The notes beneath the pieces are model-generated. The model was not told the origin of the DNA and did no database searches. It worked only from the letters and a program-made list of their open reading frames with translations. The position numbers and the translations under genes are program-made. From NCBI GenBank assembly GCA_902531765.1, contig CACAFC010000009.1, positions 1 to 52,665 of the forward strand: a stretch of DNA of 52,665 bases. Direction: 5' to 3'. This stretch comes from an uncultured Pelagibacteraceae bacterium (GTDB lineage: Bacteria; Pseudomonadota; Alphaproteobacteria; Pelagibacterales; Pelagibacteraceae). Below, in pieces: positions 48,536-52,665 of this stretch; position 1 is the stretch's first letter, and the number at the start of each line of letters is the position of its first letter.

Positions 48536-49099
48536 ATGAAAAAATTATCTTTTTTATTTATTGTGTTCTTTGTTTTTATTACCAACGTTTATTCACAAGA
48601 TGAATTTTTTCAACCAGATGATTTATTTCATATAGATCATATGGATTCATACAACAAAGAATTTAGCTTATACTTTAAAGGTAGAGAAAAATCTGTTTTA
48701 GCTAGAGGCGAAAATGATAATTATATAAATGATTATCCAAAAGATCTTTATATTTACAATCATTTAAAAAAGTCCTCTTCACCTCTAATTTCTTATGAGT
48801 GGTTTCCTTCGCAAGCTAAATATCTTTTACAAGAATATGATTTCCCAGTATTTCCTGATGATTTTGCATATTATTTATTAAAAGATAATAAAACATTAGT
48901 AATGATTAGCGCCGTAAAAAGTTTAAATGCTAATTTTAAATATGACATTGGTAGTAAAAAACTAGAACTTTATCCTACTACTGGTAAATTCGATTTTATA
49001 ATCTCTTCATTTTCTAAAGATTGTGGTCATTATAAATTTGATGATAATTATAAATGTAATATCTACAAACCTTTGATCTCTAGCAATTTAATCAATTAA
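48536..49099 (+). CDS. Secreted protein of unknown function
   Basis: 187 aa with a clear signal peptide (KKLSFLFIVFFVFITNVYS, cleavage near residue 21). The mature part is rich in Asp, Tyr and Lys, with DLFHIDHMDSYNKEFSLYF near the start and two cysteines near the C-terminus (KDCGHYKFDDNYKCNIY) that could form a disulfide. No family recognised. It converges on ftsY with an 8-bp overlap. Confidence 0.7.
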   Translation: MKKLSFLFIVFFVFITNVYSQDEFFQPDDLFHIDHMDSYNKEFSLYFKGREKSVLARGENDNYINDYPKDLYIYNHLKKSSSPLISYEWFPSQAKYLLQEYDFPVFPDDFAYYLLKDNKTLVMISAVKSLNANFKYDIGSKKLELYPTTGKFDFIISSFSKDCGHYKFDDNYKCNIYKPLISSNLIN

Positions 49100-50009
49100 T
49101 TTGAGTAAAAGCTTCAGCAAATTTTTCTGCTTCAAATAACTGTAGGTCGTCTTCTTTTTCACCTAAACCTAGTGCAATAATTGGAATTTCATATTTTTTT
49201 GCTAGCGCTAACAAAATTCCTCCCTTGGCTGTGCCATCTAATTTTGTCATCACGATACCTGTTATCGGGATAATTTTATTAAATTCTTCGACTTGATTTA
49301 ATACATTTTGTCCTGAGGTCGCATCTAAAATTAAAATAACATTATGAGGTGCATTGGGATCTATTTTTTTGGTGACATTTGCTATCTTCTTATATTCTTC
49401 CATTAAATTTTTTTTATTTTGAAGTCTACCAGCTGTATCTATTAAAACTTGATCAAAATTATTTTTAATAGCTTCATCCACAGCCTTAAAAGCAACAGAA
49501 GCTGGATCAGCTCCTTGTGATGATTTTACTATTTGAACATCTACTTTACTTGCCCAATTTTCTAGTTGTTCAATTGCAGCGGCACGAAATGTATCTGAAG
49601 CTGCAAACATGACTTTACTACCGTTAGTCTTCAATATTTTTCCAATTTTACCGATAGTTGTTGTTTTCCCAACGCCGTTCACACCAGAAATTAACGTTGC
49701 ATTAAGTTTTTCTTTTTTTTCAAAAAAGGATTTATTTTCCAAGGGTTTCATCAAAGAAATTATATATTCTTTTAAAATAGAGTTTATCTCTTTAGATAGA
49801 TCTTTATTTGGATCAATTTTTTTTCTAGAAATTATTTCTTTTATTTCAGATGCAGCCTCAACGCCCACATCTGATCGAATTAAAAATTCCTCAATTTTAT
49901 CTAAATTTTCGTCATTAATTTCTTTTTTGACAATTATTTCTTTAAGTCCAGATGTAAACGCTGATGCACTTTTCTTAAATCCGATTTTAAATTTATCAAA
50001 GATACCCAT
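49092..50009 (-). CDS. ftsY: Signal recognition particle receptor FtsY
   Basis: 305-aa SRP receptor GTPase that docks ribosome-SRP complexes at the membrane. N domain (about 10-90), then the G domain: GVNGVGKTTT (109-118), DTFRAAA (139-145), DTAGR (191-195) and TKLDGTAKGG. The long acidic A domain of E. coli FtsY is absent, as in many alphaproteobacteria; the short basic N-terminus (FDKFKIGFKK) may serve in membrane binding. It overlaps the dapF stop by one base. Its partner ffh lies about 1 kb away on the other strand. Confidence 0.95.
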   Translation of the reverse strand: MGIFDKFKIGFKKSASAFTSGLKEIIVKKEINDENLDKIEEFLIRSDVGVEAASEIKEIISRKKIDPNKDLSKEINSILKEYIISLMKPLENKSFFEKKEKLNATLISGVNGVGKTTTIGKIGKILKTNGSKVMFAASDTFRAAAIEQLENWASKVDVQIVKSSQGADPASVAFKAVDEAIKNNFDQVLIDTAGRLQNKKNLMEEYKKIANVTKKIDPNAPHNVILILDATSGQNVLNQVEEFNKIIPITGIVMTKLDGTAKGGILLALAKKYEIPIIALGLGEKEDDLQLFEAEKFAEAFTQIN

Positions 50010-50833: not shown

Positions 50834-50875
50834 ATATAGTTATTTAACTTATTTATTGACTTTTTGAACCTCTAT

Positions 50876-50881
50876 TATAAT
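50876..50881 (+). promoter_or_regulatory. -10 element of the ffh transcript
   Basis: A perfect TATAAT at 50876-50881 is positioned so that transcription would begin at about 50888, at the first base pairs of the ffh leader RNA. TTGACT at 50856-50861 would leave only a 14-bp spacer, so the -35 assignment is unclear. Confidence 0.55.
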
Positions 50882-50885
50882 TTGT

Positions 50886-50981
50886 GGCAGTTTCCGCAAA
50901 AACATTAAATTTGCGGTGTCTTTGGAAACAAAGAGATCGACACTAGTCAGCGAGGGTTCGCCCACTAGTGCGATTACTGCT
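50886..50981 (+). ncRNA. Structured leader RNA of ffh (four-helix junction)
   Basis: Helices seen by eye: P1 GGCAGT (50886-50891) with ACTGCT (50976-50981). P2 CCGCAAA (50894-50900) with TTTGCGG (50910-50916). P3 TCTTTG (50919-50924), tetraloop GAAA, CAAAGA (50929-50934). P4 ATCG (50936-50939) plus CACTAGT (50941-50947) with ACTAGTG (50964-50970) plus CGAT (50971-50974), A40 bulged, capped by GCGA/TCGC or GGG-TTCG-CCC. All helices are compatible in one fold enclosing nearly every base. The ffh ATG follows 13 nt later with no ribosome site. I recall an ffh leader motif being proposed for Pelagibacter; this is probably that element, unverified. Confidence 0.75.
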
Positions 50982-50994
50982 GTGTGTAATAAAT

Positions 50995-52353
50995 ATGTTT
51001 GAAAATTTGACAAATAAATTCGAGGAAGTTTTTTCCTCTTTGAAAAAAGCTCCATCACTTGATGAAAATCAGGTTGATGAAGGGCTAAGAGGTATCAGAC
51101 AAGCATTATTAGAAGCTGATGTGTCTCTTGAAGTTGCTAAAGATTTTATTGAAAAAGTTAAACCAAAAGCCTTAGGTCAAGAAATTATTAGGTCAACATC
51201 TCCTGGGGATATGGTTGTAAAGATTGTTTATGATGAGTTAGTAAATCTTTTAGGGGAAAAAAATAATGAAGTAAATTTAAATGCTGTTCCACCAGTACCA
51301 ATGATGCTAGTTGGCTTACAAGGTTCTGGTAAAACTACCACAACAGCTAAACTTGCAAGATATTTAGAAAATACAAAAAAAAAGAAAGTAATGATGGTCA
51401 GTTTAGATATTTATAGACCAGCTGCTCAAGAGCAATTAAAATCTTTAGGTGAACAAAATAATATTTTAACTCTTCCAATAATCGAAGGCCAACAACCTGG
51501 TGATATTTGCCAAAGAGCAATTAGTGCAGCAAATTTAAATGGTGCTGATATTATCTTATTTGATACTGCCGGTAGAACACAAATAGATTTGCAGATGATG
51601 AGCGAAATTAAACAAATCGAAAATACAATTAAACCTGCAGAGACTTTTTTAGTTGCAGACTCACTTACTGGGCAAGTAGCTGCATCAGTAGCAAAAGAAT
51701 TTAATAATACAGTTAATTTATCTGGAATTATTTTAACAAGAGCAGATGGTGATGCAAGAGGCGGGGCTGCTGTAAGTATGAAATTTGTTTCACAGGTCCC
51801 AATAAAATTTTTAGGTATCGGTGAAAAAATTGAAAACCTTGAAGTTTTTCATCCAGACAGAATTGCAAATAGAATTCTTGGGATGGGAGATATTGTTTCT
51901 CTTGTTGAAAAAGCAGCCCAAGATCTTGGAGAAGAAAATATAAAAAAAACAGAGGAAAATTTAAAAAAAGGACAATTCTCAATGCAAGATTATTTAACCC
52001 AACTGAGACAAATGAAAAAAATGGGTGGTATTGAGGGCATCATGTCTTTCATGCCAGGCGTTTCAAAAGTAAAATCTCAAATGGATGCAGCTGGAATTGA
52101 TGAGAGTGTTATTACAAAAAACGAGGCTATAATTTTATCAATGACAAAAAAAGAGAGAGAGAACCCAAAAATAATTGACGGTTCTAGGAAAAAAAGAATT
52201 GCTAATGGTTCAGGAACTGATCCAGCCACTATCAATAAATTGTTGAAACAATTTAAAATGATGTCTGAAATGATGAAGAAGATGTCAAAAGGAAATCTGA
52301 AAGGTATGTCTGACAAAGGAATACCTCCAGAATTATTTAATCAATTAAAATAA
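50995..52353 (+). CDS. ffh: Signal recognition particle protein Ffh
   Basis: 452-aa SRP54 GTPase. It binds signal peptides and SRP RNA and docks with FtsY. G domain: GLQGSGKTTTTAKLA (107-121), DIYRPAA, DTAGR (190-194), TRADGDARGG. The methionine-rich M domain includes the RNA-binding stretch SMTKKERENPKIIDGSRKKR and MMSEMMKKMSKG near the end. ATG 50995 (MFENLTNKFEEV) is chosen over an in-frame ATG at 50968, which lies inside the leader RNA helix P4. rpsP follows after 13 bp. Confidence 0.96.
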   Translation: MFENLTNKFEEVFSSLKKAPSLDENQVDEGLRGIRQALLEADVSLEVAKDFIEKVKPKALGQEIIRSTSPGDMVVKIVYDELVNLLGEKNNEVNLNAVPPVPMMLVGLQGSGKTTTTAKLARYLENTKKKKVMMVSLDIYRPAAQEQLKSLGEQNNILTLPIIEGQQPGDICQRAISAANLNGADIILFDTAGRTQIDLQMMSEIKQIENTIKPAETFLVADSLTGQVAASVAKEFNNTVNLSGIILTRADGDARGGAAVSMKFVSQVPIKFLGIGEKIENLEVFHPDRIANRILGMGDIVSLVEKAAQDLGEENIKKTEENLKKGQFSMQDYLTQLRQMKKMGGIEGIMSFMPGVSKVKSQMDAAGIDESVITKNEAIILSMTKKERENPKIIDGSRKKRIANGSGTDPATINKLLKQFKMMSEMMKKMSKGNLKGMSDKGIPPELFNQLK

Positions 52354-52366
52354 AAAAGGAGAGTAA

Positions 52367-52665
52367 ATGTTAAAACTAAGATTATCTAGGGGTGGTACAA
52401 AAAAAAGACCTGTTTATAAAGTTGTTGTGGCTGATAGTCGATTTGCAAGAGACGGCAGATTTATAGAGAAAGTCGGTTTTTTTAACCCGCTATTACCAAA
52501 AGAAAAAAAAGAAAGAATTGGATTAGAGGCTGAGAGAATAAAATATTGGTTGGGTCAAGGTGCACAACCAACAACAAGAGTAGCTAGAATTTTAGGTGAG
52601 AATGAATTAATGCCTATGCCTGCTAATGGTAATAACCCTCAGAAAGCAATTCCAAAAAAAGATAG
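52367..52665 (+). CDS. rpsP: 30S ribosomal protein S16 (runs off the window end)
   Basis: Small-subunit protein needed for 30S assembly. [20 protein letters not shown] (2-21), [20 protein letters not shown] (22-41) and [17 protein letters not shown] (about 60-76) are the S16 signature. The frame is open to the last base (99 codons), so the C-terminal extension is incomplete here. A strong ribosome site AAGGAG ends 5 nt before the ATG. It lies 13 bp after ffh, the usual bacterial ffh-rpsP order that continues to rimM and trmD. Confidence 0.95.

Follow-up and report, generated by a model that had tools for sequence, protein, structure and literature searches.

The window, the whole stretch of 52,665 nucleotides from an uncultured Pelagibacteraceae bacterium analysed here, carries a structured RNA between dapF, on the minus strand, and ffh, just 3' of a TATAAT box. 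The features of this region and the evidence for each of them are as follows:

50856..50861, plus strand: -35-like TTGACT, read from the sequence
50876..50881, plus strand: -10 box TATAAT, read from the sequence
50886..50891, plus strand: 5' strand of the previously drawn helix P1 (partner 50976-50981), unsupported; pairing near shuffled level, no covariation
50896..50914, plus strand: P2 hairpin, 50896-50900 with 50910-50914; 94.7% of alignment cells paired, double changes G-C to A-U
50915..50938, plus strand: extended P3 hairpin, GGU 50915-50917 with AUC 50936-50938 and 50919-50924 with 50929-50934, GAAA loop 50925-50928; 96.6% of cells paired, double changes in 6 of 9 pairs
50926..50979, plus strand: match to the Rfam profile RF01793 ('ffh'), 54.4 bits, E 1.2e-7, gathering score 35, whole model covered
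50939..50940, plus strand: P3-P4 linker; G50939 may pair with C50914, alignment columns 54-79 being the covarying pair ranked fourth
50941..50970, plus strand: P4 hairpin, 50941-50947 with 50964-50970 and 50950-50953 with 50958-50961, loop 50954-50957, interior with a C50948-C50963 mismatch and A50949-C50962 at a variable pair; 100% of cells paired in SAR11, class-wide double changes in 11 of 12 pairs
50971..50982, plus strand: 3' tail CGAUUACUGCUG, SAR11 form of a GYUUUGG-like tail; conserved alignment columns and aligned tails, consensus by eye
50995..52353, plus strand: ffh (SRP54) coding sequence; Pfam SRP54, SRP_SPB and SRP54_N
52367..52665, plus strand: rpsP (bS16), the next gene, reaching the window end; Pfam Ribosomal_S16, E 8.7e-28

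The TTGACT and TATAAT boxes are 14 nt apart in the window, compared with about 17 nt in several relatives judged by eye, and TTGAC was also seen by eye, uncounted, 5' of many relatives' leaders. A transcript predicted to start 6-8 nt past TATAAT would begin within the 5' strand of P1. The folded element (50886-50981) stops 13 nt 5' of the ffh ATG, and the end of P4 lies 24 nt from this start codon, a distance close to what a ribosome covers during initiation. On the minus strand beside the leader, dapF is adjoined by a further gene for an SRP-type GTPase, apparently ftsY (49092-50009), with an SRP54 GTPase match at G000:C9:49107-49700, G000 being the SAR11-type genome of the window.

The sequence-only reading had drawn this segment as a four-helix leader maintained by selection. 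Its minimum-energy structure does consist of those four helices at -39.4 kcal/mol, compared with -20.8 +/- 3.4 kcal/mol for 200 shuffled sequences (z -5.5, 0/200 equally stable), and the presence of a structured, selected leader before ffh is borne out by conservation and compensatory changes. The drawing itself held only in part. On an alignment of 83 distinct SAR11 leaders, obtained from 95 loci after removal of duplicates, it pairs in 87.8% of cells, with 96.0% in P2, 94.9% in P3 and 94.0% in P4 but 54.8% in P1. The comparison that had been suggested as a check, a covariance-model search with a SAR11 alignment, found compensatory changes in P2, P3 and upper P4 and no covariation in P1. Closure of the junction by P1 is not supported by these data: shuffled partners give 53.1%, with 9 of 500 shuffles reaching the observed value, its partner strand pairs better when slid by 3 columns (57.4%), and none of its 6 pairs is among the covarying pairs under a tree-based null. 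P2 and P3 stand as proposed, with compensatory changes across the 83 leaders, and so does P4 above its base. In the base itself, the five pairs GAUCG/CGAUU form in 80.3% of SAR11 cells against a shuffled mean of 76.8 (0/500 as high), and they compete with a GGU/AUC extension of P3 that pairs in 83/83 sequences. Beyond SAR11 the P4 base is not upheld, as no leader group has an excess over its shuffled controls (3 or more of 4 pairs form in 56/68, 8/12, 30/92 and 8/40 leaders by group; shuffled means 54.5, 8.4, 23.7 and 11.7). Pairing of the P4 base in SAR11 is possible, and the alignment supports it weakly.

Covariation was ranked over 7750 column pairs with our own tree-based null and 60 simulations. 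The top six pairs are P4 84-107, P3 61-72, P3 59-74, the P3 extension 54-79, an indirect pair 32-79 and P2 32-54, and neither P1 nor the P4 base contributes a pair to the first 40. The top pair alone was not equalled in any of the 60 simulations (E below about 0.02); the next pairs have E values of 0.5 to 5, since SAR11 leaders have changed little and offer few independent changes. RNAalifold omits P1, P2 and the P4 base and extends P3 by CGGU/AUCG. A revised fold, with P2 at columns 32-36/50-54, P3 at 55-57/76-78 and 59-64/69-74, and P4 at 81-87/104-110 and 90-93/98-101, pairs in 97.7% of cells in the 83 leaders. The state with extended P3 is on average 1.3 kcal/mol less stable than that with P2 and the P4 base, and has the lower energy in 30/83 leaders; the competing states are close in energy and the minimum-energy drawing is therefore not decisive. 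A full two-state switch between P2 plus P4 base and extended P3 was considered and set aside, because a shorter P2 is compatible with the extended P3 when the two share one base, and no switch is needed. C50894-C50895 may add two P2 pairs when GGU/AUC is open, and a one-pair exchange at the P2/P3 boundary is possible. At columns 32, 54 and 79 (window 50896, 50914 and 50939), ten SAR11 leaders from four genera carry A-U-A in place of G-C-G, a joint change of the kind expected if C50914 were able to pair with either neighbour. Some SAR11 leaders appear by eye to allow a 5' CUUCC to pair with a GGAAG close to the start codon; this pairing is absent from the window and was discarded.

Across the class, P4 consists of helices of 7 bp and 4 bp separated by a C·C mismatch and one variable pair in 200/203 leader pieces; the other three have U at the first C and were counted as misses by a P4 finder that requires C·C. 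At the variable position A·C, C-G, U-A, G·U and other combinations occur, and 69 of 107 representatives (near-identical leaders removed) have a non-standard pair there. As this pair changes, what was formerly drawn as a small internal loop is one fixed C·C beside a changeable pair. On the same 107 representatives 94.4% of P4 cells pair and double changes occur in 11 of 12 pairs. Covariation scores 0.438, compared with at most 0.078 for slid versions. A P3 hairpin lies within 5 nt of P4 in 46/46 SAR11 leaders, 9/12 leaders of a family described below (f51) and 88/92 plus 39/40 other leaders, while shuffled upstream sequence yields one in 51-64%. A tail resembling GYUUUGG, judged by eye, starts about 6 nt 3' of P4 throughout the class. 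Overall, the class-wide RNA comprises P2, P3, a linker usually of 1-2 nt, P4 and a G/U-rich tail.

RF01793 matches 175/197 genomes of the order and 106/385 of the class, and loci chosen by this profile are biased towards it. A new covariance model built from P4 and the tail (R1) matches 247/385 alphaproteobacterial genomes (211/315 of the good ones), leaving 138/385 without a match. In a phylum-wide draw R1 matched 111/398 genomes, and all matches listed belong to Alphaproteobacteria, the share of the 398 from outside the class not being stated. Most matching genomes have a single copy.

Of the 196 motif loci fetched first, 189 have ffh, and the remaining 7 comprise 3 at contig ends and 4 in which rpsP comes first; these 4 all belong to f51 and have no ffh. 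In a further 40 R1 loci, taken from genomes missed by RF01793 except for the second site of one genome (G203), ffh starts 18-91 nt past P4 on the same strand in every case. The leader therefore heads ffh or rpsP in every fetched locus, bar the 3 cut by contig ends. The gene for bS16 is found on the fetched piece in 37 of these 40 loci, the other three pieces ending 1.5-2 kb past the leader. Among the 80 RF01793-positive class genomes (of 106) covered by the rpsP and rplS counts, 77 have rpsP at most 5.1 kb downstream on the same strand; the other three are two genomes without an rpsP found (87% and 84% complete) and one with the motif at a contig end. Thus rpsP was never seen separated from the leader in the loci and genomes examined. 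The gene rimM follows rpsP in the annotated records inspected, and rimM, trmD and rplS are all downstream in three annotated records. Of the same 80 genomes, 68 have rplS at most 12 kb downstream and on the same strand (65 within 8 kb and 3 at 8-12 kb); it is on another contig in 9, on the opposite strand in 1, distant in 1 and not found in 1. What heads these genes is a conserved structured RNA at the start of an operon with rpsP, judged from gene order, which is how ribosomal protein leaders are recognised, and the association persists where ffh appears to have been lost (f51) and where rplS is unlinked (G477 and G513).

Family f51 is a natural knock-out that separates the Ffh and bS16 hypotheses without bench work. 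It comprises 18 small-genome Alphaproteobacteria (G245, G369, G464, G540 and G577-G590; loci L198-L211 and L287), mostly drafts, with 6/18 at least 93% complete; one contig (G245) bears the name alpha proteobacterium MED-G09. The RF01793 motif is found in 14/18 of these genomes, with no match in four. In 14/14 loci rpsP is the next gene after the leader, and dapF is on its other side in 13/14, the last being cut by a contig end. A search with Ffh as query found neither Ffh nor FtsY in the 4/4 f51 genomes searched, whereas it matched twice in both G000 and G367, and once, to an FtsY-like sequence, in G217, an incomplete genome. The SRP54 GTPase family was over cut-off in 0/18 f51 genomes (one sub-threshold fragment in G579), compared with 3/3 comparison genomes and 14/14 controls. 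SRP RNA (RF00169) was detected in 0/18, against 7/7 comparison genomes and 11/14 controls, so that the SRP RNA search, which misses 3/14 controls, is less complete.

The f51 leader is nevertheless maintained as an RNA structure. Among 12 distinct leaders (2 of the 14 are identical to others and were left out), a P3 of 5-7 bp can form by direct pairing in 12/12, its helix being unbroken by construction since it was defined as the longest run of pairs, and the P4 stem pairs are intact 7/7 in all 12. Compensatory changes are found in both hairpins: in P3 at pair 2 (G-C in 8, A-U in 4) and pair 5 (C-G in 8, U-A in 3, U-G in 1), and in P4 at pair 2 (G-C in 8, A-U in 4) and pair 4 (C-G in 6, U-A in 5, U-G in 1). 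DapF identity within the family is as low as 51%. Because the compensatory changes occur within a family lacking detectable SRP, selection acts on the RNA in genomes in which no Ffh was found that could bind it, and in this family the leader is independent of SRP.

Retention of the leader before rpsP in the apparently SRP-less f51 makes control of the operon by bS16 more likely than control by Ffh. We tentatively propose, with a confidence just short of even, that the RNA acts in cis as the leader of the (ffh-)rpsP-rimM operon and is bound by free bS16, blocking translation of the first gene and lowering expression of the operon. Free bS16, made from the operon, would bind the stacked P3 and P4 with the C·C mismatch and the tail, and bound bS16 would keep ribosomes off the first start codon. 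To our knowledge bS16 does not count among the classical primary binders of rRNA. Mimicry of rRNA by P4 was also considered and dropped, as nothing above chance appeared in E. coli 16S and 23S: R1 reached a best E of about 1, with the hairpin skipped in the four alignments shown, and a count of C·C hairpins at sequence level gives 1 in 16S, where shuffling gives a mean of 1.35, and 2 overlapping ones in 23S, against a mean of 1.25.

Across relatives, ffh begins 10 to 284 nt past the point where the RF01793 match ends, a range that fits poorly with one simple steric block. A TTTT run within 12 nt past P4 is found in 3/74 SAR11 leaders, 3/12 f51 leaders and 45/92 plus 21/40 of the others. The spread in distance, together with UUUU after P4 in about half of the non-SAR11 leaders, makes different output modes possible, and in some GC-rich relatives P4 with its U run may serve as a terminator instead. 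P4 as a general attenuator was rejected, since the U run right after P4 that would mark an intrinsic terminator is rare in SAR11 and termination is therefore not general.

Autoregulation by Ffh, the feedback favoured in the sequence-only reading, would have Ffh bind its own leader and repress itself. Ffh is an established RNA-binding protein, and ffh is the downstream gene in the 189 and 40 loci given above, but f51, with no SRP GTPase or SRP RNA detected in 18 genomes, keeps the leader before rpsP along with its compensatory changes, and we consider this explanation very improbable. The case against Ffh comes from one family, mostly of draft genomes, in which the evidence is consistent. It also had been suggested that the GAAA hairpin imitates the tip of SRP RNA. 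This loop is present in the window but not fixed, since P3 carries GNAA in 56/83 SAR11 leaders and another loop in 27/83, and covariance models gave no match in either direction: RF00169 had none up to E 10 in six leader-bearing loci, where RF01793 is the only family reaching its gathering score, and R1 had none on the SRP RNAs of four loci, its two weak matches lying outside them. The mimic was abandoned on these grounds. The two RNAs share a hairpin with a non-canonical internal step, and the SAR11 leader has a GUCAG strand (by eye); the leader, however, also occurs in genomes without an SRP RNA match. Meyer et al. (2009, PMC2704228), in the part of their report that deals with the motif, likewise saw no resemblance to SRP RNA. 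The SRP RNA of the window's own genome (L141 1501-1593; G000:C2:99695-99787) scores 34.3 bits against an RF00169 gathering score of 40, and a search at that threshold would therefore miss it.

Absence of any dedicated ligand is the most plausible of the alternatives, though still unlikely: a stable 5' structure could protect the message or tune translation or growth-rate control. The leader does start close to the promoter, and short RNAs from the same place are reported in the accessible accounts of several species, yet C·C in 200/203 pieces, a short linker and a conserved tail exceed what a protective hairpin needs. Somewhat less probable is another product of the operon, RimM, TrmD or bL19, as the ligand. 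The order rpsP-rimM in the inspected records, the three records with rimM, trmD and rplS, and the linkage of rplS in 68/80 genomes speak for these proteins. Against bL19, rplS lies 2 Mb away (upstream) in G477 and on the opposite strand in G513, so that bL19 is not needed; Sphingomonas parapaucimobilis (NZ_CP155749) has an R1 match before ffh-rpsP-rimM, then a gene on the opposite strand, in a gene table that is incomplete. We know of no precedent for RimM or TrmD as leader ligands. A trans-acting small RNA that is merely encoded at this place appears improbable, more so than another operon product. RF01793 has the Rfam type 'Gene; sRNA', and the motif figures, in the sections available, in candidate lists from Sinorhizobium, Mesorhizobium (on a plasmid) and Bartonella; the RNA nonetheless always heads ffh or rpsP in fetched loci, bar the 3 contig ends, and is mostly single-copy. 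Among these records, Sinorhizobium candidate sm5 maps between dapF and ffh; short RNAs from the place of the leader were seen in metatranscriptomes, according to the passages on this motif in PMC2704228.

The statement in the sequence-only reading that an ffh leader motif had been proposed for Pelagibacter, its ligand then unknown, proved correct. In the description by Meyer et al. (2009, PMC2704228), as far as its accessible text goes, RF01793 is a single bulged hairpin proposed to control ffh, with a range of Rhodobacterales, Sphingomonadales, Rhizobiales and Pelagibacter. The RNA described here is the same, in the same place and covering the whole model, but it adds P2, P3, the tail, a wider range (247/385 class genomes) and a family in which rpsP comes first. 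A candidate S16 leader of Flavobacteria, located upstream of rpsP and usually rimM and suspected to bind S16, resembles it in position and presumed ligand (Eckert and Weinberg 2020, PMC7247131, in its accessible part); it belongs to a different phylum. Like other ribosomal protein leaders (rpsB motif and others), the present RNA is structured, heads a ribosomal protein operon and is confined to one lineage; unlike them, the non-ribosomal ffh is usually first, and no likeness to rRNA was found. Searches of the open-licence literature found no account of an S16 leader for Alphaproteobacteria, and a 2024 review, in its accessible text, gives no information on control of the rpsP-trmD operon.

The motif has so far been listed in Rfam under the ffh label with ligand unknown, and the suspicion that bS16 binds it makes the ligand question testable. 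A broader reading, which we hold with more reserve than the operon proposal itself, is that the 'ffh motif' is misnamed and would be an ancient, nearly class-wide bS16 leader, that free bS16 sets Ffh output in most Alphaproteobacteria, and that a marine family, having shed its entire SRP, retained the switch on rpsP only. If true, this would be the first known control of the rpsP-trmD operon, would couple synthesis of the SRP protein to the supply of a 30S protein, and would tie protein export capacity to small-subunit assembly in a large bacterial class.

Some loci depart from the common arrangement. Two R1 matches each were found in G203, G252, G432, G547 and G878, some of these assemblies being 5-8% contaminated, and the second site of G203 precedes ffh. 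In G477 (L034, about 1633-1819) a short reading frame, FCNPDCRDKF by eye, lies between leader and ffh in a 284-nt gap. A chorismate mutase gene is found between ffh and rpsP in two Rhizobiaceae records and one Paracoccus record (L318, L319 and L321), and the Paracoccus record has an acetyltransferase gene there as well.
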